From Polyangiaceae bacterium (GTDB lineage Bacteria > Myxococcota_A > Polyangia > Polyangiales > Polyangiaceae): DNA of 49,524 bases. The stretch lies in contig JAKLKA010000041.1 in NCBI GenBank assembly GCA_023150915.1, positions 1 to 49,524 on the forward strand, in the 5' to 3' direction. The notes below the pieces were generated by a model. It was not told where the DNA came from, did not search any database, and was given only the letters and a program-made list of their open reading frames with translations. A program made the translations under genes and the position numbers. Of this stretch, positions 28,820 through 44,222 are shown one piece after another (the stretch's first letter is position 1; each line of letters starts with the position of its first letter).

Positions 28820-28825
28820 CTTTTC

Positions 28826-29104
28826 CTAGGGGGCGAGCGTGTCCGCGGTGTGCTCCGCCACCGCCTCCAGCTCCTCGATGGCGTTCCTGAGCTGCGCCAA
28901 CGCCGACATCGTTCGCGCGAGCGGGTGCTCCACGAGCGGCAGCTCGCCGTCGATCTCCGCTGCAGTGGCCTGCAAGCGCTGCCGAAGCTCGGCGAGCTGT
29001 TCCAGGGCTCGGGCGGCCTCGTAGACGACACCCAGCGCGAACTGCTCACGGTCAGCGTCGGTGACCCGGCCACGGAGGGCGTGGAGGATTTCCTCCTCCG
29101 TCAC
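28826..29104 (-). CDS. Small helical protein of unknown function
   Basis: Encodes 92 residues, almost entirely helical and acidic, with leucine/alanine spacing that suggests a coiled coil (ARALEQLAELRQRLQATAAEI; TMSALAQLRNAIEELEAVAEH). The start is GTG. It lies 6 bp before the excisionase-like gene and about 145 bp after the ATPase gene in the same leftward unit. Function unknown. Confidence 0.6.
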   Translation of the reverse strand: MTEEEILHALRGRVTDADREQFALGVVYEAARALEQLAELRQRLQATAAEIDGELPLVEHPLARTMSALAQLRNAIEELEAVAEHTADTLAP

Positions 29105-29150
29105 GCGTGCCCCTCGTGCTGTGTCGGCACTGTTGATTCAACCCCCGTCC

Positions 29151-29263
29151 CATTCGCGTCCCAATCACGTCCAGGGACGTGATTCGGATTCGCGTCCGCG
29201 TCCCGCCCCCCTAAGGGGGCGGACGTGAATCGATCCGCTCGGACGGGAGTCATTCGCGTCCCA
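29151..29263. repeat. Iteron-like repeat cluster with two perfect palindromes
   Basis: CATTCGCGTCCCA occurs at 29151-29163 and 29251-29263, and GATTCGCGTCC at 29187-29197. Between them are two perfect palindromes: ATCACGTCC-AG-GGACGTGAT (29164-29183) and CCGCCCCC-CTAA-GGGGGCGG (29203-29222). The last repeat runs into the end of the ATPase gene. Repeats like these beside a RepA/RecA-like ATPase fit a replication origin or an operator set. Confidence 0.62.
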
Positions 29264-30440
29264 CCCATCGGTGTCTCCGATCCCGGCTCTTGCCGGTGGC
29301 GGTTAGCTCGCCGTTGTCGAGCATCACGGTCAGGGCAGCTCGCACGTCGGCCGCCTTCCGGCCGAGCTGGACGGCGATGCTGTCGGCGCCCCCCTGCTCT
29401 GGCGCCCGACGGAACAGATCCCGCAGCTCTCCCGCGATGCGCTCCGTGCGCTCTCGTTGCCGAGCGGCCCGGGCGTCGTCGGCGGCGTCCTCCCGCGACG
29501 GTGCGGCGCTGGCGGTCACGAGGACGCCGGCTCGGGGGTCGCTCCCGATTTCCGCGTCACTGATGCTCAGGGTGAAGTCCTCCACCAGCCGTCCGCTGAC
29601 GCGGGCCTTCTCGTGGCTGACCCTCGTGGCCTGCCCCTTGTCGCCCTCGAACACCAGGACGGAGCCGCACGCGTCGAAGATCGCGCCCGATCCCCGAATC
29701 GCCATCTTCGCACCACCGGCGGAATCACGCTGCGGCTTGCGGGCATGGTGGATCACGATCACCACGCACCCCGTCCGCTCCGATGCGCGCGTGAGCAGGT
29801 CCAGGACGCGGCGCACGCCCGAGTCGTTTTCGTCGATCGTCGGGCACGCCGCCCGGAGCGAGTCGAGGATCGCCAGGTCGAACCCGTCGAGCCGAGCGGC
29901 GAGTGCGTCCTCGCTCATGCCGTCGAGGTAGATCCGCGGCATCGAGACGAGCGCGAGCCGATCTCCGAGGTCACTCGGCCCGACGGACATGCCGAGGGCG
30001 AGGCGCTGGTAGCGCTCGCGCGTGAGGCGCTTGCCCTGCTCGAAGTCGATGTGGAGCACGCGGCCTTGGGTCGCCGCGAAGGCGCCCCACACACGGTCAC
30101 CTGCGGCGACCGCGAGCCCCATCGACTGAGCAGCCAGGGTCTTTCCCGAGTAGCCGTAGCCTGCGAGCAGGCCCGGCGCTCCCGGACAGAGGTCGAGCGC
30201 CGCGACGAGGAACCGGATCGGGTCGAGGGCAGCGAAGATGGCGGCCACGCCGAGCACGGGCCACACCACCGGGGCGTCCTCGGATGCGCGCTCGGGCGCC
30301 GCGTCCGGCGCGTCGTCGTCATCGGGCGTCCAGTCGTCCCAGTCGTCGTCCGGCGGCGGCGACCCGGACCGGCGGCAGTGTTCGACCTGCATCGCATCAA
30401 CTGCGGCGAGCGCGATGCGCTGTGCGGCGGTCGCTGTCAC
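29250..30440 (-). CDS. RecA/RepA-like AAA ATPase (AAA_25 type), putative replicative helicase
   Basis: Encodes 396 residues. An acidic N-terminus (DDDWDDWTPDDDD, about 31-43) leads to a RecA-fold ATPase: P-loop GYGYSGKT (94-101), LHIDFEQGK, a Walker B segment DLAILDSL, and IVIHHARKP. The pattern is that of RepA-type helicases and AAA_25 proteins of plasmids, phages and islands. A C-terminal winged helix is likely (SIAVQLGRKAADVRAALTVMLDNGELTATG). The GTG start at 30440 overlaps the stop of the upstream small gene as GTGA. The stop lies within an iteron-like repeat. It probably helps the element replicate after excision, but no primase is seen. Confidence 0.83.
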   Translation of the reverse strand: MTATAAQRIALAAVDAMQVEHCRRSGSPPPDDDWDDWTPDDDDAPDAAPERASEDAPVVWPVLGVAAIFAALDPIRFLVAALDLCPGAPGLLAGYGYSGKTLAAQSMGLAVAAGDRVWGAFAATQGRVLHIDFEQGKRLTRERYQRLALGMSVGPSDLGDRLALVSMPRIYLDGMSEDALAARLDGFDLAILDSLRAACPTIDENDSGVRRVLDLLTRASERTGCVVIVIHHARKPQRDSAGGAKMAIRGSGAIFDACGSVLVFEGDKGQATRVSHEKARVSGRLVEDFTLSISDAEIGSDPRAGVLVTASAAPSREDAADDARAARQRERTERIAGELRDLFRRAPEQGGADSIAVQLGRKAADVRAALTVMLDNGELTATGKSRDRRHRWVGRE

Positions 30441-30811
30441 TCCACGCCCCCGAGACGCGCACGCAGCAGGTCGATCACGAGCAGCGCAGCCACGCACCGC
30501 ACGTCGTATGCATCGGCATCCAGCCCGAGCACCGCTGCGGCGTCGTCGCGCGCGGCGTCCAGGATCATGTTCGCGTCGCCGGCTGACGTACCGAGGGCGC
30601 GCAGTACCGCTACAGCTCGCGCCTCCGCGATGAACGCGCGCCCCTCTGCATCGCTCGCGGCGGCTACTCCGGCCCGGAATCCGCGGCAGTGTGCGCGCAG
30701 CGCGTGGAGCGGATCGTCCGGCGTGCTGCGGATTTCGGAGTACTCGTGCGAGACTCCGGACAAACGGGGGACATTCGATCGCGCTAGACGCGCGACCGCG
30801 CTCTTCGCCAT
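30437..30811 (-). CDS. Small alanine-rich protein of unknown function
   Basis: Encodes 124 residues, helical and Ala-rich, without recognisable motif. A GGAGG sits about 5 bases before the ATG. Its stop overlaps the GTG of the ATPase gene by 4 bases, so translation is coupled, which marks it as part of the replication operon. It may be the first gene of that unit. Confidence 0.68.
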   Translation of the reverse strand: MAKSAVARLARSNVPRLSGVSHEYSEIRSTPDDPLHALRAHCRGFRAGVAAASDAEGRAFIAEARAVAVLRALGTSAGDANMILDAARDDAAAVLGLDADAYDVRCVAALLVIDLLRARLGGVE

Positions 30812-30880
30812 GGGGCCTCCATCGCGCTCCCCGCGGCTCAGACCCGCGGCGATGGGCGCGTCAAGGGTTTGGTGGGTGGT

Positions 30881-31090
30881 CTAGGTGCTCAGACGGACGC
30901 GCCAGTGCGCCCCGAGCTTGCGGCCCTCGACGCCCAGCCCAGGGTGGGAGACCAGGTGGGCTCCCTCCTGCCGTGCGTTCCGGCAGAGTCGCGCTCGCAG
31001 TGCACTCGCTGTCAGGCCGAGGCGAGGCGCCGCCTCGCGGAGCCGGAGCCAGCGTTCGGACCCGGGACCGATGTGCTCAGTGATCGACAT
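30881..31090 (-). CDS. Small helix-turn-helix protein
   Basis: Encodes 69 residues. WLRLREAAPRLGLTASALRARLCRNAR is a helix-turn-helix, followed by the strand-like end GRKLGAHWRVRLS. The same layout, including the G-x-HWRVRL ending, is seen in the gene at 32243, so both belong to one family of small DNA-binding proteins. ATG 31090 is chosen; the frame opens at 31108. Confidence 0.6.
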   Translation of the reverse strand: MSITEHIGPGSERWLRLREAAPRLGLTASALRARLCRNARQEGAHLVSHPGLGVEGRKLGAHWRVRLST

Positions 31091-31170
31091 CTCGCGTCCA
31101 TGATGCACGCGCCGTTCAGCGTGCGCCAGCTCGAACAGCCTTCAGCGCCGAGTGAACTCTAAGCGCCAAA

Positions 31171-32124
31171 TTAGGGACGCGCGGTGCGAAGCTCCTGAGC
31201 GATCCGCTGTGCTGCGCGTGCGCGAGATTCACCGTCGCGCACCGAGCATCCGAGCGCTCCGCAGTCGAGGCCCAACTCGGCGACCAGCCACGCAGGCCCG
31301 AACTGGCCTTGCCCACCGGGCTGGCGCGCCAGCTTCGCAAGCTTGGCTTCGACGCGGTCGAGTGTCAGCCCTTCGAACGACGGGTCACAGGCGATGAGGC
31401 GAAGCCGGATTTCCGCGGCATAATCAGCCGGCTCGATGGTAGCCAGCACATCGCGGACTTCGGTGAGAGCCAACGCGCGCCGCTCCGTCATCGGCAAGAC
31501 CGCGTCGTACGCTGCCTCAAGGCGGCGCTGGTCACCGGAGAGCGCAGCGGCGATAGCTGAGGCCGCGCCTATCGCGCAATTCAGCGTCCACGGGGTCGTT
31601 GGCATGTTCAGCAGAAACCGCTGAATGAGATGGAGCCGACGCTGCAGGCTCTCCTCGCGCTTGAGCTTGGCCATCGCCGAATCGATCAGCGCGCGCTCCC
31701 TCCCGATGGCCGAGGCCGCGCCGAATCCCACTAGGCCCAGAACAGCCGCACCTTGGCGCGGGTTGGGCTCTGCAACTGCGCGCGAATAGTCGCCCACAAG
31801 CACGCCCTGGAAGCCATCGCCCAGCAGGAGCGCGGCGCCCTGCAACTCCTCCCTCGGGCGCTTCGCTTGCGCCGCCAGTCTGACCAAATCGACGAGCGCT
31901 CTCCGACGGGCCTGCATCGGCCACGCCGCTTCGGCAAAGCTGCGCGCCCTGCCCTCCGAGCCAACTGCAGCGATGCGCACGCCGGCCGCGGCGACCCGTA
32001 GCGCCGCTTCGCGCAGCGGCCCAAGAAGCTCCGCACCCTCGTGTTCCACCATCGCCTCGGCCACCTTCCAGGCATGGCGCGCGGCCCTGTAGTTCGCTTC
32101 GACGTAGCTCGACATGGCGCTCAT
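31171..32124 (-). CDS. Uncharacterised helical protein of element 2
   Basis: Encodes 317 residues, almost all helical. It has Ala-rich hydrophobic stretches (GAAVLGLVGFGAASAIG, about 126-142) that are too polar-flanked for certain membrane segments. No catalytic motif is seen. A hairpin with arms GTAGCG/CGCTAC lies immediately before the ATG (32126-32142) and could act on translation. It is divergent from the HTH gene at 32243 across a palindrome. Function unknown. Confidence 0.62.
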   Translation of the reverse strand: MSAMSSYVEANYRAARHAWKVAEAMVEHEGAELLGPLREAALRVAAAGVRIAAVGSEGRARSFAEAAWPMQARRRALVDLVRLAAQAKRPREELQGAALLLGDGFQGVLVGDYSRAVAEPNPRQGAAVLGLVGFGAASAIGRERALIDSAMAKLKREESLQRRLHLIQRFLLNMPTTPWTLNCAIGAASAIAAALSGDQRRLEAAYDAVLPMTERRALALTEVRDVLATIEPADYAAEIRLRLIACDPSFEGLTLDRVEAKLAKLARQPGGQGQFGPAWLVAELGLDCGALGCSVRDGESRARAAQRIAQELRTARP

Positions 32125-32173
32125 TGTAGCGCAGCTCGCTACGGGGGCGACCGTGACCGCCCAGACCTTGTTG

Positions 32174-32185
32174 CAGCATATGCTG
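32174..32185. promoter_or_regulatory. Palindrome in a divergent promoter region
   Basis: CAGCATATGCTG is a perfect 12-bp palindrome between the divergent genes at 32124 (leftward) and 32243 (rightward, HTH). It is a candidate binding site for the HTH protein. Confidence 0.45.
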
Positions 32186-32242
32186 TGGAATGAGCAACGT
32201 CTGCCTCTGGTCGCGTCACCCGCTGGTCGCTAGAGTTCACAG

Positions 32243-32602
32243 GTGCGCGAGCCCATCAGAGTAGTCCTGACCGACTTCGTCGCGGCGGCCGAGCGCGTGA
32301 TCGCGCTAAAGGACATGAACTTGCATCAGGTCCAGAGCACAAACACACCAGGCATGCGGGCCGCCAGCGAGCCTGCTTGGTCGCGTCGCATGCGAACGGC
32401 CGAAGCAGCGCGAGTTCTGTGCATCAGCGAACACGCGCTCCGGCGCCAAATACGCGCGCATATGCGTGCCGACGGGACCGCGCTGTTCGACGGGATCTGC
32501 GCCGAACGGGTGGGGTCGCACTACCGGGTCCGCTTGGCCCGCCGTTGGCTCACTGAGCCCGCCGGGGAAGACGGCGCGGGCGGCCCACCGACGGCGCGCT
32601 GA
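32243..32602 (+). CDS. Helix-turn-helix protein of element 2
   Basis: Encodes up to 119 residues from a GTG start. The motif MRTAEAARVLCISEHALRRQIRAHMR (about 50-75) is an AlpA/excisionase-like HTH, followed by a beta-wing ending VGSHYRVRLARRW. The first 45 residues have no clear fold, and a shorter start at ATG 32315 is possible. The 3' end overlaps the convergent gene at 32550-32888. Likely a regulator of the element. Confidence 0.6.
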   Translation: MREPIRVVLTDFVAAAERVIALKDMNLHQVQSTNTPGMRAASEPAWSRRMRTAEAARVLCISEHALRRQIRAHMRADGTALFDGICAERVGSHYRVRLARRWLTEPAGEDGAGGPPTAR

Positions 32603-32888
32603 ACGAACCAGCGCCGCGATTGGCTCGGTGGCGGGCGGCACCAAGAGCACCGCGTGCGAGCAACCCGGCAAGCTCATGGGTGGTGACGGTCTGCAACTCG
32701 TAGACCGACATGTTCAACATGCAGACGCGTAGGTACCGGCGGGCAGCCTCCAAGTCACCAGCTCCTAACTCTGGGTCCCCGGCGCCGACCAGGCGCTCTG
32801 CCATCTGCCAGGCGAGGCCCTTGATCTTCGAGTCGGAGACCGCCCGCTCGTACATCGCCTGCTTCCACTCTCGCTCGTCGTCGTCCAT
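32550..32888 (-). CDS. Small protein of unknown function
   Basis: Encodes 112 residues. The first 80 are helical and acidic (MDDDEREWKQAMYERAVSDSKIKG, then LEAARRYLRVCMLNMSVYELQ). The last 30 are Arg-rich, low in complexity and overlap the convergent HTH gene, so the true functional part may end near residue 85. No family recognised. Confidence 0.5.
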   Translation of the reverse strand: MDDDEREWKQAMYERAVSDSKIKGLAWQMAERLVGAGDPELGAGDLEAARRYLRVCMLNMSVYELQTVTTHELAGLLARGALGAARHRANRGAGSFSAPSVGRPRRLPRRAQ

Positions 32889-33057
32889 GGACTATTGCAG
32901 TAGTAATTAGTGCCACCAGCACGGCCTGCTTGTCGATCTTGAAGAACGTACGCATCGGCCGCTTGTGCACGGCCTGCTCGCGGATCGCCTTCGACACCGA
33001 TGACCGCCGTGGCGCTGCACACGTCCGTGAGCAAGATCGGCCGTGGAGGTCATGGAA

Positions 33058-33363
33058 ATGGCACAAGACGACAAATTGTTGGGAGTGACCGATGTTGCTG
33101 CAGAGCTGGGGCTGACCGAGGCCGACGTTCGGCAGTGGGCGCGCAACGACGGAGATGTTGCGAGGATCGGCACGACTTGGGTGTTCCGCAGCGACGACGT
33201 GGCTCGGCTCGCCGCAGACTTGGACGAGTACGACAGCAACCCGGACGACGATGACGATGACGATGACGACGGCGACGGCGACGACGACAGCGACGGCGAC
33301 GACGACAGCGACGGCGACGACGACAGCGACGGCGACGACGACAGCGACGACGAGGACGAATGA
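33058..33363 (+). CDS. MerR/excisionase-like HTH protein with polyacidic tail
   Basis: Encodes 101 residues. The first 55 form a helix-turn-helix (LGVTDVAAELGLTEADVRQWARNDGDVARIGTTWVFRSDDVARL). The last 40 are nearly all Asp, with Gly and Ser, encoded by an 18-bp tandem repeat. A GGAGG 8 bases before ATG 33058 decides the start; the frame opens at 33043. The acidic tail resembles that of DNA-mimic or histone-like partner proteins. The stop overlaps the next start as ATGA. The tail probably changes length by repeat slippage. Confidence 0.68.
   Translation: MAQDDKLLGVTDVAAELGLTEADVRQWARNDGDVARIGTTWVFRSDDVARLAADLDEYDSNPDDDDDDDDDGDGDDDSDGDDDSDGDDDSDGDDDSDDEDE
33280..33351 (+). repeat. Four tandem 18-bp repeats coding DDDSDG
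   Basis: Unit GACGACGACAGCGACGGC is present three times without change, then once with GAC in place of the last GGC. The unit length is a multiple of three, so copy-number changes keep the frame. Confidence 0.85.
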
Positions 33364-33635
33364 CCCCGGCCGACCGGGAGGTCGCTTCGTTACTGTCCGA
33401 CGTGATCGACCTCTGCCTGCGCCGCGCCTGCGCGGACGACAACGCGGCTGACGCTCTTGCCGTCGTCCGCGACGTCGTGGCTCGATGGGCGGGCGCCGAC
33501 ATCGAACGTAAGCGGGTTCACGCAACCCTGTACGCGGTGCTGCGGGCGCTGCGGACAACAGCCACGGATGCCACGGCGGGCACCTTCGAGCGGCGTTACG
33601 CCGGTTTGTCAGTCAGCGGCGGCGCGCGGGAGTGA
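33360..33635 (+). CDS. Small protein coupled to the polyacidic HTH gene
   Basis: Encodes 91 helical residues, with Arg and Asp alternating (VIDLCLRRACADDNAADALAVVRDVVARW). Its ATG overlaps the TGA of the HTH gene as ATGA, so the two are co-translated. The 3' end overlaps the convergent XRE-type gene by 23 bp. No motif recognised; a partner or anti-regulator of the HTH protein is plausible. Confidence 0.55.
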   Translation: MTPADREVASLLSDVIDLCLRRACADDNAADALAVVRDVVARWAGADIERKRVHATLYAVLRALRTTATDATAGTFERRYAGLSVSGGARE

Positions 33636-33852
33636 GAAGCGCAAGCGGTTCAACTTCGAGAACAACTGCCAGGCGCTGAACCATCGCCAGCGTCGCGCTC
33701 CGCTCCGCGCGAAGCAACGCCCAGATGTGTGACCGTGCAATTCCTGCCCGGTCAGCGACGTGACTCATCGGGAGCCCGCGCGCCTCCGCCATCTGTCGCA
33801 GGCGACCGGCGAGAACCCGCTCCAGGGAGCCTGTCCGCGCGGCCTTTTCCAC
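33613..33852 (-). CDS. XRE-type transcriptional regulator
   Basis: Encodes about 79 residues. GRLRQMAEARGLPMSHVADRAGIARSHIWALLRAERSATLAMVQRLAVVLEVEPLALL is a complete Cro/CI-type helix-turn-helix. The start is uncertain: GTG 33852 gives a compact protein; the frame remains open far upstream but that part reads antisense to the Cys-rich lipoprotein gene. A 10-bp palindrome (CTGTATACAG, 33889-33898) lies upstream and could be its operator. Confidence 0.65.
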   Translation of the reverse strand: MEKAARTGSLERVLAGRLRQMAEARGLPMSHVADRAGIARSHIWALLRAERSATLAMVQRLAVVLEVEPLALLTPARRR

Positions 33853-33888
33853 GGCCGGATCATGGGTCGCCAGAACCTGGCAGCTGTC

Positions 33889-33898
33889 CTGTATACAG
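33889..33898. promoter_or_regulatory. Palindrome in the XRE/lipoprotein promoter region
   Basis: CTGTATACAG is a perfect 10-bp palindrome between the leftward XRE-type gene and the rightward Cys-rich lipoprotein gene, within an AT-richer stretch (TATTCTGAAT follows). It may bind the XRE protein. Confidence 0.45.
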
Positions 33899-33936
33899 AG
33901 TATTCTGAATAGAGCACAGCGGTCCTGGGAGGCATC

Positions 33937-35064
33937 ATGCGACGGTTTTCGATCTTGGCGATGGGCATCTTCTTGGCGGCAGTCGCCGCGTCTTGTGGCG
34001 GCGACGACGGCGGTGGGGGCACCGAGGCGTGCGGTGCGAGCAACTGCGCTGGGTGTTGCGACAAGGGGGTCTGCAAAGCGGGGACGGACATGGCAGGGTG
34101 CGGCGTTCAGGGCGCACAGTGCGCGACGTGCACGGCGGGACAGACTTGCGCAGCGGGCAAGTGCGAGGCCTCGTCCACTGGCTGTGGTCCGGGGAACTGC
34201 CCGACCGGTTGCTGCGTTGGTGACACTTGTCGGAGCGGCCTCGACAGCGACGCCTGCGGCCAGGGCGGCGGCGCCTGCTCGCCGTGCAATGCCGGTGAGT
34301 CTTGCGAGGCAGCTTCGCGGAGCTGCATTCCGCCCACCAGCGGTTGCAGCAGCACTTGCGCTGGATGCTGCGCGGGCAACGCCTGCAACGCAGGCACGAC
34401 AGCCGCGGCGTGCGGGCAGGGCGGTGCCGCGTGCACGACGTGCGGGACCGGGCAGGCCTGCGTGAACGGACAATGCGCGAGCGCTACCGAGTGCAGCCCG
34501 ACGAACCCGGCGGGCGCGTGCGGAACTGGGGAAACATGCGTTGCCGGTTCGTGCTGCGCGAATGCACTGGCGTGTGGCACCAAGTGCTGCGGAGCCGGCC
34601 AGCTCTGCATGGATGATGGTCAGGGCAACTACAGTTGCCAGCAGGCTTGCACGACCAACGCCCAGTGCTCCGGGGCGAACGGCTGCTGCGCGCTCCTGGC
34701 GAACGGGACCGGGGCCTGCCAGCCGCCGTCAGCGAATGTGCGCTGCCGGTGCGGCACGAGCGCCGACTGCACGGCCATCACCGGCAAGTCGGCCTGCGTT
34801 CCGTCGGTGGACAACGGGGTGGTCGTCGCCAAGAGCTACGAATGCCGCCCCAACGACGGCAAAGCGGGCAACGGCTGCAACGGGAGCACTACCTGCGGCT
34901 CGGGGTACGACTGCATGGTGGACACCAGCAAGAACCAGTTTTGCACCCTAGGCTGCGCGACCGACGCGACCTGCGGCAACCCGGGCGTCGGCTGCTGCAA
35001 GCCGGCGGGATGCGACAACGCGATTTCGAGCTGCAAGTTTCCAAACGCTTGCATGCCCTGTTAG
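33937..35064 (+). CDS. Cys-rich repeat lipoprotein
   Basis: Encodes 375 residues. The signal peptide ends at AASC (lipid-modified Cys20), followed by a short Gly/Asp linker. The mature part has about 60 Cys in repeated units such as CGxxxCAGCC...GxxCxxC(T/S)xGxxC, probably cross-linked by disulfides, and no catalytic site is visible. Such proteins are numerous in Polyangiales and are thought to be exposed on the surface. GGGAGG four bases before the ATG supports the start. It lies within element 2, next to an XRE-type gene and a serine recombinase gene. Confidence 0.85.
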   Translation: MRRFSILAMGIFLAAVAASCGGDDGGGGTEACGASNCAGCCDKGVCKAGTDMAGCGVQGAQCATCTAGQTCAAGKCEASSTGCGPGNCPTGCCVGDTCRSGLDSDACGQGGGACSPCNAGESCEAASRSCIPPTSGCSSTCAGCCAGNACNAGTTAAACGQGGAACTTCGTGQACVNGQCASATECSPTNPAGACGTGETCVAGSCCANALACGTKCCGAGQLCMDDGQGNYSCQQACTTNAQCSGANGCCALLANGTGACQPPSANVRCRCGTSADCTAITGKSACVPSVDNGVVVAKSYECRPNDGKAGNGCNGSTTCGSGYDCMVDTSKNQFCTLGCATDATCGNPGVGCCKPAGCDNAISSCKFPNACMPC

Positions 35065-35112
35065 CCGCGCCATGGATGGACAACGCGGAGATCCGGCCGC
35101 AACCTTCGGGGC

Positions 35113-35760
35113 ATGCACCGAAGTGCCGCCTACGTTCGCGTCAGCTCCAAGAGCCAGGATCATGCAACCCAGCGGGCGGCGATAGCGCGAGCCGCAGCAG
35201 CCCGTGGCGATGCCATCGAGTGCTGGTACTCCGAGAAGCAGAGCGGCAAGAACATGGCCCGCATCGAGCTGCAGCGCTTGCGCGGCGATGCCCGAGCGGG
35301 GGACCTGCGACGGCTCTACGTCTTTCGGCTCGACCGCCTGACCCGCTCGGGCATCAGGGACACCCTCGACTTGATCGAGGAGCTGCGGGCGCATGGCGTG
35401 GACGTCGTCAGCGTAGCCGACGGCTTCGACCTCAACGGCCCCGCGGCCGAAGTCGTGTTGGCGGTGATGGCCTGGGCCGCCAAGATGGAGCGCATCGCCA
35501 TCAACGAGCGGATCGCCGCCGCTCGGGAGCGTGTCGAGGCCGCTGGCGGGCGCTGGGGCCGCCAGCGGCGCATGGCACGGGACGAGGTGAGCCGAGCCGC
35601 GGCGATGCGTGCAGACGGGCGCAGTGTCCGAGAGATCGCCGTCGCGCTCAAGGTGCCGCGGTCCACCGTCGGCAGGGCGCTCGCGTCCCAAAATGGTGGG
35701 CTCGTCGAGCAGCGCTCGTGCCCGTCAGATCCGCCCCCCGAGCCCCCCTCGGCCCAGTAG
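35113..35760 (+). CDS. Serine recombinase (resolvase/invertase family)
   Basis: Encodes 215 residues. The catalytic domain has YVRVSSKSQD (nucleophile Ser11) and FRLDRLTRSG, both typical of resolvases and invertases. The C-terminal HTH (DEVSRAAAMRADGRSVREIAVALKVPRSTVGRAL) recognises DNA. The last 15 residues are Pro-rich and variable. It may resolve or invert DNA within the element; no matching crossover repeats were seen next to it. GC is high and similar to the neighbours. Confidence 0.9.
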   Translation: MHRSAAYVRVSSKSQDHATQRAAIARAAAARGDAIECWYSEKQSGKNMARIELQRLRGDARAGDLRRLYVFRLDRLTRSGIRDTLDLIEELRAHGVDVVSVADGFDLNGPAAEVVLAVMAWAAKMERIAINERIAAARERVEAAGGRWGRQRRMARDEVSRAAAMRADGRSVREIAVALKVPRSTVGRALASQNGGLVEQRSCPSDPPPEPPSAQ

Positions 35761-35820
35761 TCTGCTTGTGGGACAGTTGTGGCGTAGCGCTCAGCGCTCT
35801 CTCGGGCACCGCCGCGACGA

Positions 35821-38800
35821 TCAGAACATGCAGATCGGAGCCCCTTTCGCCGCGAACATGGAGTTGGGGAGAGCCGGGCAACCGGCCGACGCATCGTGCG
35901 GGACTTTGACCACAAACGACGACGTGGAAGCGTTGCCGCTGGCGTCGCGAGCTTCGACCGTAACGGTATAGGCGCGCCCATCGCCACCGCCGTTTCGATC
36001 CGCTTTGAGGCACACACCGGTGGCACCGAAAGCGGAACTTCCGGGCGCAGGTTCGTCGCTGTCGACGGCGACAATTCGGACCGTGGGGGACGGGTCACAA
36101 TCGAACACTGACACGTTGACGTTTTCACCGAGAATGAATGGCACGTGCTTGCCGTTTGGTGGCCACAGGCAGGTGGGCGAGAAGTCGATTGCGTCGAACA
36201 CGGGTGGCGAAGAATCGACGCCGCTGCAAATGACGCTTCGGTTTCCACTGGCGGAGAAATTCACTGAGCCAAAGTACCGTTGTGGCTTCGCACTGACCGC
36301 TACGAATGCTGGACGGGCGGCACTGAGCCCCGAACCGAAGAACGCGTCTTCGCGCAGGCCCGGTGCATTCGGGGCCGCGCTGAACGCTAACTCGCTCGCT
36401 TCGAACACCGCCAGCTTCGGGGGTGTTGGCGGAGTTGTGGGCGGCTCCAGAGCGATGCTGATGGGCGAGGAATCAGTCACGCGAATCAGGGCGGCCCATC
36501 CTGTGTTCTCGACGCCGCTGTTGCACCCGGTGCCCTGTCCGCCCGTTGCCAGCAGGTCTTCGAACGGCGCAGAGACGATGATCGCCCCGTTGCTCGTGCC
36601 GCCTACGTTCCAGCCGAAGTTGTCGCCGTTGGCAAGCGGGTTCCCCGGGGCCCCACAGGTCTCCGCTGGCCCTGGGATCTTGCCGTCACCTTGACGCCAG
36701 AATGCTTGCCCCACCGCTGTGACGCCGGTCGCGCTGCCGCGCAGGACGTGTGCCGCCCCCCTGCCTGTGTCTTCGTTCCAAGCTCCAACGATGAGGTCGT
36801 CGAAGCCATCGTCATCCGCGCTCGTTATTGCCAGCGAGCCCCCGAAGGCGTCGAACGGACCGGCACTTCCGGCCACAGCCACTCCACCGAGGACGGTGCC
36901 CTCTTGAATGAACTGGCTGCCCGTCGGAGTCAGGCCACCTGACGAGCCGCTGATGATGGTGACGGCACCTTTTCCGATAACTCCTCCCTCGTTGCTTTTT
37001 GCTGCGAGGTCGATGCAGGGCCGTCCGTAAGACGAATCGCCGTTGAAGTTGCCCGCGGCGAGCTTCCCGCCGAACGCATCCAGTTGATTCGGACCGTTAC
37101 CGATTCCAGGGATCGATTGATCTATCCGCTGCCAGCGTTTTGGCTGAGTACCGGCCGTCGGCACTTCAAGCCCGGATGCCGAGCCGTACGCGACCTGCAC
37201 GACGCCAGCGAACAGGGTCGTTCCCACCGTCGCCGTCGCGAGACCGATCGCCAAGTCCTCATAGCCATCGCAGTTGAAGTCGCCAGCCGTGACCGCGGTG
37301 GGCAGCGCGCCTGCGCCGGTCATCCCGAGCGCCGTCATCGGCAGGGTGACTTTCTTGTTTCCGGGGTCGAGCCCAATGCCCGTCTTGCCGTGCACAACAT
37401 AGACGCTGTCCCGACCCGCGATCGCCAGATCGTCAAAGCCGTCTCCGTCGAAGTCGCCAGCCGCCATCTGGCGCCCGAAGGAGTCCGATGACTGCGGGGC
37501 CCCGCCAAACGTCTTGACGTCGAAGTTCTTCCTGACCAAGTCGAACCCGGTGGGACCCGGCGCAAACTTCACGTAGCTGACCACGCCAGCGAGTGGAATC
37601 TGAATATCAGGCTTCCCCACACCGCCTGGCACGGCGAGCGTCTTCCCCGGGGCGCCGAACGCGACACCGTCACGGCCCGCGTCCCCATCGAACTTTCCCC
37701 AACCTATGGCTGCGCCGAAGCGATCGCCGAATTCGTCCGCGGGGCCTCCGGGACTGAGTATGTTCAGTATCTCCAGGTCCAGGACGTCCAGGTAGGCCTT
37801 GTTGGTCGTATCGCGACTGAGTACGTAGCTGACCCCAACCCGCGGGTTGAAGTTGCCGCCGGGGTTGTTGCCAGGCGCACTGATGACCATCGTTTCGTGC
37901 TCGGCCTTGTCGAAGAGGTGCAAACCGCGAGGAACCAAGTGCGCGGCGTTCTTGAGTCCCGTCGCAGCGCCCAAGTAGACCGTCTCGTTGCCATCCGCTC
38001 GGACGAGGGCCACGTCTGACATGGTGTCCTTGTTGAAGTCACCCACGACAAAGTAGCTGAGCGGGTTAGACACGGACGCGCCGATGTTCCAGCCACCCGG
38101 CCCGATGGACGACACTGCACCTGGGAATGTGAACTGGCTCTCTGCCATGCCCTTGAAGTAGAGAGGAACACCAGCGACGTGTCCCACGACGTCTCCTTTG
38201 CCGTCTCCGTTGAAGTCGCCCGAGAAGAATCCGGCGAGGGCCGTCGCTGAGACCGGCAAGAATGTGTCATAGGGTCCGATGACGGTTCCCGAGCCGAAGG
38301 TAAGCTGCAGAACCGCCGTGTTGCTCGCCGAGATCAGGAAGTCCAGTGACTCTTCTTTGCCATCGCCGTCGAGGTCGAACTTGACGCTTGGGGCGTTGTA
38401 GCTCAACACCACGCGGGCAAAATCTCGAAAGCCGGATGCCGCCGAGAAGAACGCGATTTCGGGATTTGGAATACCGCTGGAAGTGGTCTCGCCGTCCCCG
38501 CTCTCCAGGATCCCCAGGATGTCGCCGGTGAGTGCAGTTGGGCTTGCGTGATCGATGATCGGTCCGCCCGAGTCGCCGGGGATCGGAATCACTCCGGTCG
38601 ACGTCGGGAAGAAACCGCCCCCGCGAAGAACGGCGAACTCGTGCGGTGACGGGCCTCGCTGAAGAAGCGCCGCAACCTTCTGCGGATCCGCAGTCAGTCC
38701 AGGGAACGGCACGACTGTGAATCCCGCCCACTCAGGCGTGCCGAACAGCGAGTCGTCGGGAGGCCAGGTGGCGGGGGCCGCCGTCAGGCTATAGCCATAG

Positions 38801-39330
38801 AACGCTTTCTTTCCAGACAAGACGAACTCCGTCGCACCTTTCGAGGTGAGCCATCGACGAAATCCGCTGCCGGAGCCATTGACGATGAGGGGCGAGATCT
38901 TCATCAGCGCGGCGTCCCAGCCCTCGTTGTCACGCGCGCTGCCGGCGACGTACCGCGGGTGCGTGAACACCTTGGGGAAGGGCTTGCCATAGACGATGCT
39001 CTGGTCGAAGGGGCTTCCCTTCATTGTGATGTACATCTTCTCGGCCGGCGGGACACAGGGCTCCAGCACGTGAGCCGCCGAGAGGAGCCATTCGTTTGTG
39101 AGCATCACGCCTGTCCCTACGCTGCAGAACTTGCCGGTCAGACCGTCCGTCTGCGCGATTTGAACAACTCCGATCTTGGCGGCATCGACCGTCGTCCCAC
39201 CGTAGATCTCGGACTGTTGGCCGGCGGTGTCTTCGAAATCGCGGCCCGTGCAACCGGCGAGCTGAGCGAGCGCCCAAACGGCGATAACGCAAAACAGCAC
39301 ATGGGCGGCTGAGCGAAATGGTCGAGTCAT
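35821..39330 (-). CDS. Trypsin-like serine protease lipoprotein with FG-GAP repeats
   Basis: Encodes 1169 residues. The lipobox is AQLAGC (Cys27). The S1 protease domain begins at SEIYGG and has His87 (LSAAHV), Asp139 (WDAALMKI) and Ser254 (GDSGGP). It is followed by many FG-GAP/VCBS-type calcium-binding repeats (DFNGDGKGD, DFDGDGFDDLAI, DFNCDGYEDLAIG) from about 350 to 950. The C-terminus is an Ig-like/HYR-type domain (VTVEARDASGNAS). The start at ATG 39330 is supported by GGAGG six bases before; the frame opens 11 codons earlier. It overlaps the stop of the next upstream gene as ATGA. It probably digests or binds extracellular protein. Confidence 0.9.
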   Translation of the reverse strand: MTRPFRSAAHVLFCVIAVWALAQLAGCTGRDFEDTAGQQSEIYGGTTVDAAKIGVVQIAQTDGLTGKFCSVGTGVMLTNEWLLSAAHVLEPCVPPAEKMYITMKGSPFDQSIVYGKPFPKVFTHPRYVAGSARDNEGWDAALMKISPLIVNGSGSGFRRWLTSKGATEFVLSGKKAFYGYSLTAAPATWPPDDSLFGTPEWAGFTVVPFPGLTADPQKVAALLQRGPSPHEFAVLRGGGFFPTSTGVIPIPGDSGGPIIDHASPTALTGDILGILESGDGETTSSGIPNPEIAFFSAASGFRDFARVVLSYNAPSVKFDLDGDGKEESLDFLISASNTAVLQLTFGSGTVIGPYDTFLPVSATALAGFFSGDFNGDGKGDVVGHVAGVPLYFKGMAESQFTFPGAVSSIGPGGWNIGASVSNPLSYFVVGDFNKDTMSDVALVRADGNETVYLGAATGLKNAAHLVPRGLHLFDKAEHETMVISAPGNNPGGNFNPRVGVSYVLSRDTTNKAYLDVLDLEILNILSPGGPADEFGDRFGAAIGWGKFDGDAGRDGVAFGAPGKTLAVPGGVGKPDIQIPLAGVVSYVKFAPGPTGFDLVRKNFDVKTFGGAPQSSDSFGRQMAAGDFDGDGFDDLAIAGRDSVYVVHGKTGIGLDPGNKKVTLPMTALGMTGAGALPTAVTAGDFNCDGYEDLAIGLATATVGTTLFAGVVQVAYGSASGLEVPTAGTQPKRWQRIDQSIPGIGNGPNQLDAFGGKLAAGNFNGDSSYGRPCIDLAAKSNEGGVIGKGAVTIISGSSGGLTPTGSQFIQEGTVLGGVAVAGSAGPFDAFGGSLAITSADDDGFDDLIVGAWNEDTGRGAAHVLRGSATGVTAVGQAFWRQGDGKIPGPAETCGAPGNPLANGDNFGWNVGGTSNGAIIVSAPFEDLLATGGQGTGCNSGVENTGWAALIRVTDSSPISIALEPPTTPPTPPKLAVFEASELAFSAAPNAPGLREDAFFGSGLSAARPAFVAVSAKPQRYFGSVNFSASGNRSVICSGVDSSPPVFDAIDFSPTCLWPPNGKHVPFILGENVNVSVFDCDPSPTVRIVAVDSDEPAPGSSAFGATGVCLKADRNGGGDGRAYTVTVEARDASGNASTSSFVVKVPHDASAGCPALPNSMFAAKGAPICMF

Positions 39331-39860
39331 CGCGATCCTCCAGGCCTCGTGGGCGGCAAACAATCATCCGCACTGGCTTTCGTCCGTCGAGCGGAGCTGC
39401 TCAACCACAGTGCGAGGGGCCCGTCAGCATGCACCACGCCGACTACCTCGTGGAACGTACCGTCGGTCAGCAGGGATGGATGCGCTCCAGGAGTGCGGTC
39501 AATCGGTGAGCCATCTGCGCTCCGGAGTTCAAGCACGACCACCGCGGGCCTGTCGACCGTGACCTGCTCCGAAGTCGCCCGCTCGCACGCGAGTATGCGC
39601 GGTGGATCCGCGCAACGCCGGCCAGAGAAGTTGCACTCGCGGAATCCAGTGCCCGTCCAGCCTCGAACTCGGACCGCGACGCCGCGGTAGCTTGCGGGGT
39701 GATCGAAGATCGCCGTAATACCCACGGACAGAGGCTCGCCCTTCGGCGGCATACCCTTCGGCGCGCCCGAAGGGCTGCACGTGGCCAGACAGGGAAGTGC
39801 TGCAGCGAGCGCGCCGAGTCTGCGGGCTCGAACGCTGAACGTAGGCGTTCGTTCGCTCAC
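39327..39860 (-). CDS. Small putative lipoprotein
   Basis: Encodes 177 residues. An N-terminal hydrophobic segment (LGALAAALPCLATC) ends at a possible lipobox Cys. The body is an OB-like beta fold, with ITAIFDHPASYRGVAVRVRGW and later VVVLELRSADGS, of the kind seen in small exported proteins. The stop overlaps the protease start (ATGA), so both genes are in one leftward unit. Function unknown. Confidence 0.7.
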   Translation of the reverse strand: MSERTPTFSVRARRLGALAAALPCLATCSPSGAPKGMPPKGEPLSVGITAIFDHPASYRGVAVRVRGWTGTGFRECNFSGRRCADPPRILACERATSEQVTVDRPAVVVLELRSADGSPIDRTPGAHPSLLTDGTFHEVVGVVHADGPLALWLSSSARRTKASADDCLPPTRPGGSR

Positions 39861-40177
39861 AGCATCCTCATCACGCTCTCCCAGACCACGGGCGCACGGA
39901 ACCCCGTGGTGGATGTCGTATCCGGCGCGACGCCAGCGCCGTAGATCTCCTGCGCGTTGGTCGCGCTGGGTCCATCCACGGGCAGCTCACGAGTCGAGCA
40001 GCCGACTGCGGCTGCGCTGAGTGCAGCGAGGGCGGGTCGTCCCGCTCGCGATGCCCCCCCGCGAACGCCGTGCCACGACTCGCAACCCGTCCGCCCGTGC
40101 CATGCTCCACCTCCCTGCACCGTGCGATCCAATTCGCCCAACTCAACGCGAGCCGTCAAGGGTGTGAATCGACGCAT
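39857..40177 (-). CDS. Short protein like a truncated protease precursor
   Basis: Encodes about 106 residues. Only the last 60 look meaningful: a hydrophobic segment with a Cys (ALAALSAAAVGC), then NAQEIYGAGVAPDTTSTTGFRAPVV. This matches the start of S1 proteases in this genome (compare QQSEIYGGTT in the next gene), yet the protein ends soon after. Its stop overlaps the next start as ATGA. It may be a remnant of a duplicated protease or a short lipoprotein. The start is very uncertain. Confidence 0.4.
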   Translation of the reverse strand: MRRFTPLTARVELGELDRTVQGGGAWHGRTGCESWHGVRGGASRAGRPALAALSAAAVGCSTRELPVDGPSATNAQEIYGAGVAPDTTSTTGFRAPVVWESVMRML

Positions 40178-40256
40178 GCCTCCCCACATGCCGTTACGGC
40201 AGCTCTCGCTGCGCGGGAGCCGCGCTCCACGCATCGCGATCGGGCGCGCCGCCGTT

Positions 40257-40520
40257 TCATTTGCGACCGCGCCGGGAGCGCGCGACGTCGAGCTGGATGG
40301 TGCTCGCGCGCGCCTTGCGGCGGCCCTCCAGGTCGTGGGCCAGCGCGGCCACGTCGGACCAGCGGCCTTCGACGGTCGCAGCCACGAGCGCTTCGCACAG
40401 CGCCTTCTCGACGGCGTCCGCAGGCAGGGTCGCGGCCAGTTCGGTGGCGCGCGCTACGAGCGCGTGGTGCAGGGCCCGGTCCCACTCGGCGCGCACAAAC
40501 GAATCGTCGCCATTCGTCAC
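40257..40520 (-). CDS. Small helical protein near the right border of element 2
   Basis: Encodes 87 residues from GTG 40520. It is mostly helical and Ala-rich, with alternating charge (WDRALHHALVARATELAATLPADAVEKALCEALVAATVEG). The frame stays open far to the right, but that part reads the att copy and the DUF2283 gene in antisense. No motif recognised. Confidence 0.45.
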   Translation of the reverse strand: MTNGDDSFVRAEWDRALHHALVARATELAATLPADAVEKALCEALVAATVEGRWSDVAALAHDLEGRRKARASTIQLDVARSRRGRK

Positions 40521-40625
40521 GGCGTGACGCGCGATCACGCACTTAGCGTCGCTATCCGTCGGCGTCGCCGGCCTGCGATCATGCTGAATACCTGCGGAAG
40601 GCGACGAGTCGGTCGCCCCGAGGTC

Positions 40626-40661
40626 AGGTTCAAGTCCTCTCCTTCGCACTCTGATTTCGTG
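40626..40661 (+). repeat. Attachment site copy 3
   Basis: 36 bp identical to 27051-27086: 24 bases of the tRNA-Leu 3' end plus 12 bases (TCTGATTTCGTG) that encode the C-terminal residues of the element 2 integrase. The upstream 30 bases of the full att are missing, so this copy is truncated. Confidence 0.88.
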
Positions 40662-40709
40662 GATGATGCGGCGCGGCCCGGCGAGTGGCGCGCCGGGGGT
40701 GGGCGGCGC

Positions 40710-40979
40710 ATGAAGGCGAGATACGTCGAGGTGACCTACAGCAAGGGGAAGCCGCTGGCCGCGTACCTGTACTTGCCGCGCGAGACGGGTGCTCGGGCGG
40801 TGCGGACTGAGGACGGTGGGCCTGGGCTCCGAGTGGACTACGACGCGAGCGGGAAACCGATCGGGTTGGAGCTCACGGCGCCCTCGGAGGTGACCCTTGC
40901 TGACGTGAACGCCGTGCTTGGCCGGATTGGTGAGCCGCAGCTCGCGCCGGAGGAGCGGGCCCCGCTCTGCAACGTGTGA
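40710..40979 (+). CDS. DUF2283-like small protein (paralogue)
   Basis: Encodes 89 residues, most of them identical to the protein at 19559-19828 (same YLYLPRE, GLRVDYDASGKPIGLE and ADVNAVL motifs). Here no DUF4258-like partner precedes it, so if the pair is a toxin-antitoxin module, this would be an orphan antitoxin-type gene. It lies directly after the third att copy. Confidence 0.72.
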   Translation: MKARYVEVTYSKGKPLAAYLYLPRETGARAVRTEDGGPGLRVDYDASGKPIGLELTAPSEVTLADVNAVLGRIGEPQLAPEERAPLCNV

Positions 40980-41010
40980 CCGCCGGCGAGGGGCTTTCTC
41001 TGCGTGGCGA

Positions 41011-41099
41011 CCGGCGACTGCGGGTCGGCCGCCTTCACCCGGACTGGCGGCTTGCCGGTGTGATACTCGGCGTAGAGCTTCGCGGCACGCTCCGCAGCT
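41011..41099 (-). pseudogene. Integrase fragment
   Basis: 89 bp match 23792-23880 with two mismatches and encode AERAAKLYAEYHTGKPPVRV from the integrase N-terminal region. Upstream, the similarity weakens with indels (GLNFPRSCG versus VELPTGSGD); downstream it stops abruptly. No start or catalytic domain remains, so it is a remnant. Confidence 0.85.
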
Positions 41100-41205
41100 C
41101 CACAAGACCGGGGGAAGTTCAGACCTACGGTCCCGGGGCGCGGGCTGGATCGAAGCGACCACGATGTCGCCACAGGCGAGTGCGCACTGAGCCGCCAGGA
41201 CCAGG

Positions 41206-41892
41206 TCAGCGTTCGGGCTTCTCCGCCGCGACTGCGAAGAACGCAGCGCCTGGGGCATGAAGCCGCCCCAGCAGCGGGTCCAGCGGAGCCATGGCGCGAG
41301 CTGCGAGGCCGCTCGGCGGAAAGAACACGGCAGCGCGCATGCGGGCTGCCTTCAGACCGGCACCTTGCACTAGCTGCTCGAGCTCGCTCAGCGACCAAAA
41401 GCGAGCGCTGCGCCAGCTCTGGGCGCCAAGCCAACCGCGCAAGCGTCGCTTGGCTGCCCAGACGCTGCGTCGATTGAGCTCGCCGAGGACCAGTCGCCCG
41501 CCGGGTGCGAGGACGCGCGCCATCTCACCGATGGCCGCCGGCGCGTCCGATACGAAGCAGAGCACGGTCACCGCGAGCACGACGTCGAGCTCGGCGTCGC
41601 CGAGCGGGAGCGCTTCCGCCCGACCTCGTTGGAGGGCGACCGAGAGCCCCCGGCTCGCCGCCCGAGCTCGAGCCGCGTCGAGCATCACCTGCTCGGCATC
41701 GAGCGCCGTCACGCTTGCCCCGCGCGACGCGGCTTCCAGGGCGTAGGTGCCGTCGCCCGCGCCCACGTCGAGCACACGCTTGCCGCGGAGCGGTCCCGTG
41801 ATGTCGAAGATGGCTGCGATCTCGGCGCGCTCCGTGAGCTGGCCGAGCAGAGTGGCCCTCCACCGCGCATACGTTTCTGGAGTGACGTTCAC
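41206..41892 (-). CDS. Class I SAM-dependent methyltransferase
   Basis: Encodes 228 residues. SAM-binding motif I is LDVGAGDGTY (41-50). An acidic residue follows strand 2 (ALDAEQ), then the motif AEALPLGDAELDVVLAV and the post-motif ARVLAPGGRLVLGEL. This is the UbiE/methyltransferase-11 type. No Cys triad of the arsenite methyltransferase kind is visible. It lies 57 bp after the PLP-enzyme gene on the same strand, so it is probably the last gene of the MFS/PLP/methyltransferase unit. The substrate is unknown; a thiol, metalloid or small-molecule detoxification role is inferred from neighbours. Confidence 0.85.
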   Translation of the reverse strand: MNVTPETYARWRATLLGQLTERAEIAAIFDITGPLRGKRVLDVGAGDGTYALEAASRGASVTALDAEQVMLDAARARAASRGLSVALQRGRAEALPLGDAELDVVLAVTVLCFVSDAPAAIGEMARVLAPGGRLVLGELNRRSVWAAKRRLRGWLGAQSWRSARFWSLSELEQLVQGAGLKAARMRAAVFFPPSGLAARAMAPLDPLLGRLHAPGAAFFAVAAEKPER

Positions 41893-41949
41893 CTCAGGAC
41901 GAGCTCCTGGCGTCGGCTCTCGCCCCGAGACCTGGGTGGGCGGCGGCGG

Positions 41950-42948
41950 TCACTGCGCCCACGCTCTCAGCCAGGGTTGCGCGCGGTATCGATCCCACGA
42001 GTCTGGCAGGACCGTGACCACCGGCCCTCGAAGGTCGCGCCGGGCGGCGACGCGGAGCGCGGCGACCACGTTCGTGCCGGACGAGCCGCCGACGAGGAGC
42101 CCTTCCTCGTGCACCAGGCGCTTCACCATCGCGAAGCTCTCGGCGTCGCTGACGCGTTCGGCGCCGTCCAGCACGTCGCGGTGCAGGTTTTCGGGCGCCT
42201 CGCTGCCGCCGATGCCTTCCACCGCATACGCAGCGTCGGCCCCCAGCACTCCCGTTTCGACCCAGTCGGCGAGCCCGGAGCCGAGGGGGTCGGCCAGCAC
42301 CACGCGGACGTGCGGGAGCGTACGCTTCAGGCGCTGCCCGACTCCGGTCAGCGTCCCGCCGGTGCCCGCACCGCAGACGAACGCCCCGACCTCGCCGCCG
42401 GTCTGCTCCAGGATTTCTGCGCCGGTCGTCTCGTGGTGGGCCCGGACGTTGGCCGGGTTCTTGAATTGGTCGGTCAAGAACCAGCCGCGCTCTTCCGCCA
42501 TGCGTTGGGCCACGTTGCGGAAGTTTTCCGGGCTCGACGGCGGCGCGTTGGGAGTGATCACGACCTGGGCACCGAGCGACGCGAGCGCCACGCGCTTGTC
42601 GAGTGACATCTTCTCCGGCATCACGCACACCAGGCCATAGCCGCGGGCGGCGGCCACGAGCGCCAGCCCGACGCCCGTGTTGCCAGCGGTCGCCTCCACC
42701 AGCGTCATTCCGGGGCGCAGCACGCCGCGGAGCTCTGCGTCCTCGACGATGGCGACGGCGATGCGATCCTTGATCGAGCCGCCCGGGTTCAGGTGCTCGC
42801 ACTTCGCGAGCACCGGGACCGCGAGGCCCTTGCCCACGCGCCCGAGCGCCACCAGCGGCGTGTGGCCGATGTGCTGCAAGATGCCGGAACGCTCGACTTC
42901 CACGTCTTTTCTCACAGCTTCGAGTACACCGCGGGGGCGTTCGAACAT
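41950..42948 (-). CDS. Cysteine synthase / cystathionine beta-synthase-like PLP enzyme
   Basis: Encodes 332 residues. It is a beta-family PLP enzyme: Lys60 in NPGGSIKDR binds PLP, ATAGNTG binds the substrate, and GAGTGGTLTG holds the cofactor phosphate. There are no C-terminal CBS regulatory domains. Such enzymes make cysteine or cystathionine from serine-type substrates. The ATG at 42948 overlaps the TGA of the MFS gene by one base, which decides the start over an upstream reading. Linked to an MFS transporter and a methyltransferase, it may supply cysteine or thiols under metal or metalloid stress. Confidence 0.88.
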   Translation of the reverse strand: MFERPRGVLEAVRKDVEVERSGILQHIGHTPLVALGRVGKGLAVPVLAKCEHLNPGGSIKDRIAVAIVEDAELRGVLRPGMTLVEATAGNTGVGLALVAAARGYGLVCVMPEKMSLDKRVALASLGAQVVITPNAPPSSPENFRNVAQRMAEERGWFLTDQFKNPANVRAHHETTGAEILEQTGGEVGAFVCGAGTGGTLTGVGQRLKRTLPHVRVVLADPLGSGLADWVETGVLGADAAYAVEGIGGSEAPENLHRDVLDGAERVSDAESFAMVKRLVHEEGLLVGGSSGTNVVAALRVAARRDLRGPVVTVLPDSWDRYRAQPWLRAWAQ

Positions 42949-44222
42949 CAACCTGCCGCGGCCCGAGCGGGCGCCAGGGGGCTGCCCCGAAGCGTCTCGC
43001 GCATGCGCACGGCGACGACCAGCCCGGAAGCGAAGGTCAGTGCTGCGACGATCCACATCGCGGCAGGAAGGCCGAGCGCGTCGGCCGTGGCGCCGGCGAG
43101 CAGCGCACCGATGGCGTAGCCCAGATCACGCCACAGTCGGTACACTCCGACGGAAGACGCCCGCCACGACGGGTGCGCCACGTCACCGATCGCCGCGAGC
43201 AAGGTCGGATAGACCATCGCGGTGCCGACACCGAGCAGCGCCGCGCCGGCGGCAAAGCCTGCGAAGCCCTGCGCGAGAACGACGCAAGCGATGCCCGCCG
43301 CCTGGACCCACATGCCGGAGGCGATGAGCCACTTGCGCCCTACGCGATCCGACCAGGCGCCGGTGAAGAGCTGTGCCACGCCCCAGGTGGCCGGGTAGAT
43401 GGCGGCGAGCGTGCCGATCGTGGAAAGGTTCATGCGCGCGGCCGCAAAGAACAGGGGGAACAGGCCCCACGCCATGCCGTCGTTCAGGTTGTTCACCAGG
43501 CCTGCTTGGCTGACGCTCGACAGGTTCCGGTCGAAGAGCGTCGTGTTCCAGAAGACCTCGCGCTGCGTGGGCAGGCCGCCAAGTGGCAGCTCCCCGTGGA
43601 GCTTCGACTCGGCGGCGACGTGGTGCTTGGTCTCGCGCACGGCGAGCGACGAGAGCAAGAGACCGACGGCGACGAAGACCACGCCCAGATAGAACGGCTC
43701 CGGGCGCAGCCCGTAGCGCGCAGCGACGAAGCCGGTGGCGAGCGCGCTTCCGGCCACCGCGAAGTAGCCGGCGAACTCGTTGAGCCCCATCGCCAGGCCG
43801 CGCTTCTCCGGCCCGGCCAGGTCGATCTTCATGATGACCGTGGTCGACCAGGTGAGGCCCTGGCTCACCCCGAGCAGCGCGTTGGCGAACAGCACCCACG
43901 ACCAACTTGGCGCCCACATCAAGAGAAACGGCACGGGCGCCGCGACGAGCCAGCCTCCGATCAGGACCTGCTTGCGCCCAAGCCGGTCCGAGAGGCGTCC
44001 GGCCAGGTAATTGGTCAGCGCCTTCGTCACACCGAAGACGACGATGAACGAGAGCACCGCGGTCTTCGCGGCAAGGTGGAAGTCCTGCTCGGCGATCGGC
44101 GGCAGGATGGTGCGCTCCATCCCGACCATTGCGCCGACGAAGGCGTTGACGACCACCAGCAGCGAGAACTGCGCGAGGTTGTCGCGAATGCCCAGGCGAA
44201 CGAAGCGGCGGGGGGGCATCAT
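42948..44222 (-). CDS. MFS transporter
   Basis: Encodes 424 residues with about 12 transmembrane segments. The MFS signature AGRLSDRLGRKQVLIGG lies between segments 2 and 3, and its counterpart GAWSDRVGRKWLIASG sits in the second half. Charged cytoplasmic loops surround residues 195-230. It probably exports a small toxic compound or metalloid, but the substrate cannot be read from sequence. It is the first gene of a leftward unit with the PLP enzyme (1-bp overlap) and the methyltransferase. A perfect 8-8-8 inverted repeat lies 9 bp before the start. Confidence 0.9.
   Translation of the reverse strand: MMPPRRFVRLGIRDNLAQFSLLVVVNAFVGAMVGMERTILPPIAEQDFHLAAKTAVLSFIVVFGVTKALTNYLAGRLSDRLGRKQVLIGGWLVAAPVPFLLMWAPSWSWVLFANALLGVSQGLTWSTTVIMKIDLAGPEKRGLAMGLNEFAGYFAVAGSALATGFVAARYGLRPEPFYLGVVFVAVGLLLSSLAVRETKHHVAAESKLHGELPLGGLPTQREVFWNTTLFDRNLSSVSQAGLVNNLNDGMAWGLFPLFFAAARMNLSTIGTLAAIYPATWGVAQLFTGAWSDRVGRKWLIASGMWVQAAGIACVVLAQGFAGFAAGAALLGVGTAMVYPTLLAAIGDVAHPSWRASSVGVYRLWRDLGYAIGALLAGATADALGLPAAMWIVAALTFASGLVVAVRMRETLRGSPLAPARAAAG

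Follow-up and report, generated by a model that had tools for sequence, protein, structure and literature searches.

What is the short stretch of DNA that follows the second of two islands behind a tRNA-Leu(GAG) gene in this Polyangiaceae bacterium, and how did it come to lie there? The window, by which we mean the whole stretch of DNA analyzed (49,524 nt), is contig C259 of the draft genome G000 (295 contigs, 8.0 Mb). A first-pass annotation had described positions 40626-41100 as the stub of a third element. We agree and go further: the stub is very probably a broken remnant of the island that occupied the tRNA-Leu(GAG) site first, with two islands now located between the remnant and the tRNA gene. 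The relevant features of the window are as follows.

17151-17237, plus strand: tRNA-Leu(GAG) gene (ARAGORN), the integration target of the array
17238-27074, plus strand: element 1, adjoining the tRNA gene, its ends common to the element of G001
17182-17235 and 27021-27074: 54-bp direct repeats of element 1
19300-19548, plus strand: DUF4258 gene of element 1 (Pfam PF14076)
19559-19828, plus strand: DUF2283 gene of element 1, type A (Pfam PF10049), directly 3' of the DUF4258 gene
22885-23997, minus strand: tyrosine integrase gene of element 1, 370 aa (Pfam PF00589)
23789-23881, minus strand: portion of this integrase gene matched by the stub
27075-40649, plus strand: element 2; G002 has a relative of it behind this tRNA gene
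27030-28352, minus strand: element 2's own tyrosine integrase gene (int2), overlapping att
28352-28819, minus strand: excisionase-like gene of element 2
40626-40661, plus strand: att copy at which element 2 ends and the stub begins
40666-40695, plus strand: inverted-repeat sequence beside att, 25/30 identical to 17253-17282 of element 1
40710-40979, plus strand: DUF2283 gene, type B, open, 89 aa, without a DUF4258 partner
40980-41005, plus strand: 26-nt 3' flank of the DUF2283 gene, ending at the left deletion junction
41007-41099, minus strand: scrap of an integrase gene with 30 whole codons (69 down to 40 of the integrase), a 90/93 match to element 1
41100-41205: right side of the junction, 106 nt, origin not assigned
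41206-41892, minus strand: methyltransferase gene

Layout of the tRNA-Leu(GAG) array

The tRNA 3' end is repeated at 27051 and 40626, and these copies delimit elements 1 and 2; by its position element 1 is probably the newest arrival in the array. To the right of the stub lies a methyltransferase-CysK-MFS block (41206-44222). The block might be cargo of the stub, but relatives carry similar genes elsewhere, and the parts of G001 and G002 that were compared gave no match to the three genes beside the tRNA gene. A PFK gene at 45103 of the window is shared; between the stub and PFK the three species differ.

The two full elements carry cargo of their own. Element 1, within 19889-23200 and 24790-26637, has a frame with a CHAT domain and a protein whose TIR_2 match falls below the cut-off. 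This possibly represents undescribed defence cargo; PADLOC returned zero matches for eight proteins. In element 2, a primase/helicase-like protein (29250-30497) lies beside the integrase and excisionase-like genes, an arrangement known from satellites or integrative plasmids. A PHROGs scan of nine proteins matched four (both integrases and the excisionase-like and primase/helicase-like proteins of element 2) and left five unmatched. We rejected a phage origin of element 1, as the viral contigs scanned held no close relative of its integrase.

Element 1 also has subterminal inverted repeats of 57 nt, 82% complementary, near both of its ends (17327-17383 and 26859-26915). They recur in the element of G001, with shorter relatives in L053 (G001, ~2.03 Mb) and, weakly, in L052 (G000, contig C57). 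Such repeats would not be expected of a tyrosine-integrase island. In each of these two loci, a related integrase lies near two more att copies (L053 6508-10686 and L052 10434-13607), which are spaced ~4.1 kb and ~3.1 kb apart, respectively; in G001 a tRNA-Leu(CAG) gene with the same 3' end lies ~24 kb from the L053 att pair. The att pairs with their integrases possibly constitute a second array.

Anatomy of the stub

The stub begins with an att copy, as the first-pass annotation had reported: 40626-40661 is identical to 27051-27086 in 36/36 positions, and 24 nt of it are common to the tRNA 3' end at 17212. The border of the stub thus carries the att expected of an island remnant at this tRNA gene. 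Between the end of the att core and the DUF2283 gene lie 60 nt. No second att was found to the right of 40626 in the window at up to 6 mismatches.

The sequence that follows att had been called a hairpin. Its likeness to element 1 over 30 nt stands (25/30), but its folding does not. The 59-nt stub stretch folded as RNA gave z = 0.58, and 135 of 200 shuffles folded equally well or better; the corresponding stretch of element 1 gave z = -2.0 (9/200). Rfam had no match at gathering score within 38000-42500, and no terminator-like or promoter-like site (the scan covering the sigma-70 type) was seen in 40500-41250. A functional hairpin or known RNA at the stub was rejected on the fold and Rfam results. 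Between the hairpin sequence and the DUF2283 gene, the stubs of G000 and G002 lack a stretch of more than 100 nt that is common to element 1 and G001.

The open reading frame at 40710-40979 (89 aa) has no internal stop and matches PF10049, in keeping with the earlier assignment to DUF2283. The match is marginal (E = 6.7e-5; 23.4 bits, gathering cut-off 23), and NCBIfam at E = 0.01 returned nothing for DUF2283, DUF4258, DUF433 or DUF5615. At the DNA level, the resemblance of the gene to other sequence in its own genome is not due to chance (E = 1e-50), nor is that of the integrase scrap (E = 9e-38). The scrap retains 93 nt of a 1113-nt gene, so the integrase is disrupted. The order and orientation of att, DUF2283 gene and integrase fragment are those of element 1, as had been noted. 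What the annotation had omitted is that the DUF4258 gene that immediately precedes DUF2283 in element 1 is absent at the stub: no DUF4258 match was found there, that of element 1 being the only one in the G000 genome. The stub consequently does not hold a DUF4258-DUF2283 pair.

Relatives of the stub and the deletion junction

The stub DNA was searched in 116 genomes and matched in 31, its own included. The matches in G001 and G002 run through the DUF2283 gene to 41008, G018 matches 201 nt of the gene at 69%, and each of the remaining matches listed is shorter than 80 nt, many being the tRNA 3' end.

G001 has a compact element (L048 12401-14926, ~2.5 kb) at tRNA-Leu(GAG), in the order tRNA, left end, DUF2283, DUF433, DUF5615, integrase (minus strand), right end and second att. 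Its left end is 91% identical to that of element 1, its DUF2283 gene 91% to that of the stub, and its integrase gene 90% to that of element 1; over 40709-41008 the nucleotide identity of stub and G001 is likewise 91%. Like the stub, the compact element has att, a type B DUF2283 gene with the same 26-nt 3' flank and a minus-strand integrase of the same family. Unlike the stub, it keeps DUF433-DUF5615, a longer left end with the subterminal repeat, and both att copies. The G001 integrase lacks its N-terminal 107 codons (L048 14373-14636 compared with 23676-26779 of the window), and relative to element 1 the sequence between those codons and the right end is lost also. The compact element, too, is probably dead.

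In G002, an array behind the same tRNA gene has one stretch homologous to 40320-41008 of the window (76%), which spans the end of element 2, att and the stub junction. The att equivalent has 1 mismatch to the core, and the 26-nt 3' flank, identical in G001, also has 1 mismatch. The DUF2283 gene of G002 is damaged, and DUF433 and a shortened DUF5615 come after it. Fuller homologous elements at the same tRNA gene thus exist in both relatives: G001 has a fuller version with two att copies, and G002 has the same left end behind a relative of element 2. This supports the earlier description of the stub as that of a third element. By family, the DUF433-DUF5615 pair is of the PIN-COG2442 (DUF433) kind, listed in one study among predicted toxin-antitoxin pairs (PMC2701414). 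The stub of the window lacks this pair, unlike G001 and G002.

A further sequence, SJ457 (JADLGX010000427.1), is titled an Eisenbacteria MAG and is possibly misbinned. The tRNA recurs there, and beside att lies a type B DUF2283 gene (90% identical to that of the stub); the contig also holds an open type A pair of DUF4258 and DUF2283 and an integrase of full length.

The homology of G001 and of G002 to the window stops at 41005-41008, where the integrase scrap starts. Two nucleotides (GC, 41007-41008) fit both sides of this left junction. On its other side, the scrap now adjoins the 106 nt and then the methyltransferase-CysK-MFS block. As the genome is a draft in 295 contigs, and neither fragment junction was seen in the other genomes examined, the joins at 41005/41006 and 41099/41100 might be artefacts of a chimeric assembly. 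Yet the left part up to 41005 is matched behind the same tRNA gene in the separate assembly of G002. Stub and element 1 share no exact match longer than 47 nt, a small length for a bridging repeat, and three bases set the scrap apart from the one other close copy that the search of the G000 genome gave. An assembly error at the two junctions is unlikely, and we give a chimera very little credence.

The integrase scrap and its identity to element 1

The scrap (41007-41099) is identical to 23789-23881 of element 1 at 90/93 positions (97%). The annotation had counted 87/89, which is the same match less its first four bases, and had taken the high identity as a sign of recent common origin or gene conversion. 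According to such a reading, a recent copy of, or conversion from, element 1 landed beside an unrelated old DUF2283 end. The identity of the scrap does stand out against the 77% of the neighboring DUF2283 gene, and 93-nt windows with at least 90/93 identities are uncommon: they make up 14.6% for element 1 and SJ457 (979/1061 over the integrase coding part compared) and 4.5% for element 1 and G001 in the part of the gene that G001 keeps, the fragment region being excluded. The comparison with SJ457 weighs against this reading. Over this very stretch, element 1 and SJ457 agree at 91/93 positions and the stub and SJ457 at 88/93. The piece is therefore locally conserved, and its high identity calls for no recent copying. 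The three differences from element 1 are private to the stub and are all C/G, third-position and silent (codons 47, 63 and 69, the last located 2 nt inside the junction), whereas a recent dead copy should show none or random ones. They look as if the scrap had diverged while it was still coding. In addition, the DUF2283 gene of the stub, 77% identical in nucleotides to that of element 1 with dS about 1.1, belongs to a different lineage (type B as opposed to type A); element 1 was thus not the recent donor of the whole stub. The SJ457 control led us to reject both gene conversion and recent copying with element 1 as the source; for the scrap by itself we hold such an origin improbable.

The DUF2283 gene: decay or a kept antitoxin

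Could the stub have been kept because its DUF2283 gene works as an orphan antitoxin against the DUF4258 toxin of element 1? A scan of genome contigs gave 35 DUF2283 loci, and in 21 of them a DUF4258 relative lies just upstream (17 long and 4 partial matches). One study lists DUF4258 as a toxin family of the RelE/ParE superfamily, its activity not known (PMC11980606), and another discusses orphan antitoxins as possible anti-addiction factors (PMC7354431). Four type B copies (the stub, G001, G002 and SJ457) sit beside att without DUF4258 upstream, and SJ457 has the open type A pair as well. The att-abutting gene would then be a standing orphan antitoxin retained next to the tRNA gene, with which a resident remnant would neutralize the DUF4258 of later relatives and weaken their addiction. 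The literature search found no paper with the word DUF2283.

The substitutions point the other way. With changes assigned by the majority of three (stub, G001 and SJ457), 4 silent and 10 replacement changes fall on the stub branch, though this branch may include time before decay; the G001 branch has 7 and 4. The replacement share predicted from the site counts without constraint is ~73%, and that of the stub branch (10/14) is close to it. For stub and G001, dS is 0.19-0.20 and dN 0.08, and the test of dS over dN indicates mild constraint (P = 0.028); the same test gave P = 0.28 for stub and SJ457 and P = 0.0036 for G001 and SJ457. These small numbers favor decay over kept function without proving it, and in so small a sample no clear constraint is apparent on the stub branch. 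Moreover, the G002 copy is broken, G001 and G002 carry the type B gene without any DUF4258 match, and the scan for sigma-70-type sites gave the gene no promoter-like site. Both the retention of the stub as a working antitoxin and the weakening of addiction by such remnants appear highly unlikely. Among the points against our own reading of the stub as a deletion relic are that its DUF2283 gene is still open and that the stub-G001 pair, unlike stub and SJ457, is mildly constrained.

Age and inheritance

Between G000 and G002, dS is 0.39 for the DUF2283 gene (76 aligned codons, dN 0.26; the G002 gene being the damaged one), 0.37 for PFK, and 0.45 and 0.56 for two other flanking frames. In element 2 it is 0.61 for int2, 0.36 for the excisionase-like gene and 0.30 for the frame 31171-32124. 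Other, partly overlapping frames gave 0.09 in the flank and 0.14, 0.30, 0.35 and 0.30/0.83 (one frame in two pieces) in element 2. The scatter is wide (0.14-0.83 for pieces of element 2, 0.09-0.56 for the flank), and some of the overlapping frames are probably not genes. The DUF2283 value resembles that of PFK and of several element 2 frames and so fits vertical inheritance of the junction. Judged from these rates, the junction of element 2, att and stub was probably inherited by both G000 and G002 and then decayed separately, and the stub island is probably older than their split.

G001 differs. Between G000 and G001, dS is about 0.19-0.20 for DUF2283 and 0.65-0.66 for PFK. The G001 copy is thus closer to the stub than PFK is, which makes horizontal exchange of that copy probable. 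We therefore did not adopt, for G001, a common occupant inherited vertically in all three species.

A probable deletion relic in a tandem array

From these observations we infer the following history. A parent of the family of element 1, with an integrase and a left end carrying a type B DUF2283 gene, would have integrated at the tRNA 3' end; its left end, like those of G001 and G002, probably also carried DUF433-DUF5615. Element 2, and after it element 1, would have integrated into the tRNA-proximal att and pushed the old element outward by tandem accretion. In this species, a deletion would then have joined the 3' flank of DUF2283 (41005) to integrase codon 69, and with a second break at 41099 the start of the integrase gene would have been lost together with the right end and its att. 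The att of the stub now serves as the right boundary of element 2. Without an integrase or a right att, the stub is not expected to excise itself. The parent may not have been a single element: the scrap could derive from an element other than the one that supplied the DUF2283 end. No intermediate was found, and the G001 integrase, without its first 107 codons, is not comparable over the scrap.

A similar route has been described for CIMEs (cis-mobilizable elements), in which integration is followed by loss of the integration genes and an incoming element accretes into the shared att (PMC5704250). The stub resembles this route in its decay with loss of integration genes, followed by accretion at a shared att. 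A CIME keeps attL and attR, whereas the stub keeps the shared left att only and is not a CIME. The likeness concerns the route of decay and accretion and not an ICE or IME class of the parent; among the matches of the selected proteins scanned there was no relaxase or conjugation gene.

The stub is thus a case of ordinary decay in a tandem island array, a known kind of island fate. Three genomes of the same genus and one contig show an island at a tRNA gene that was buried by later arrivals and broken differently in each lineage. The scrap also carries a caution, in that 97% identity over a short piece may reflect local conservation and not recent copying. Finally, the DUF4258-DUF2283 pair, which recurs across loci, is a candidate toxin-antitoxin system that lends itself to testing.
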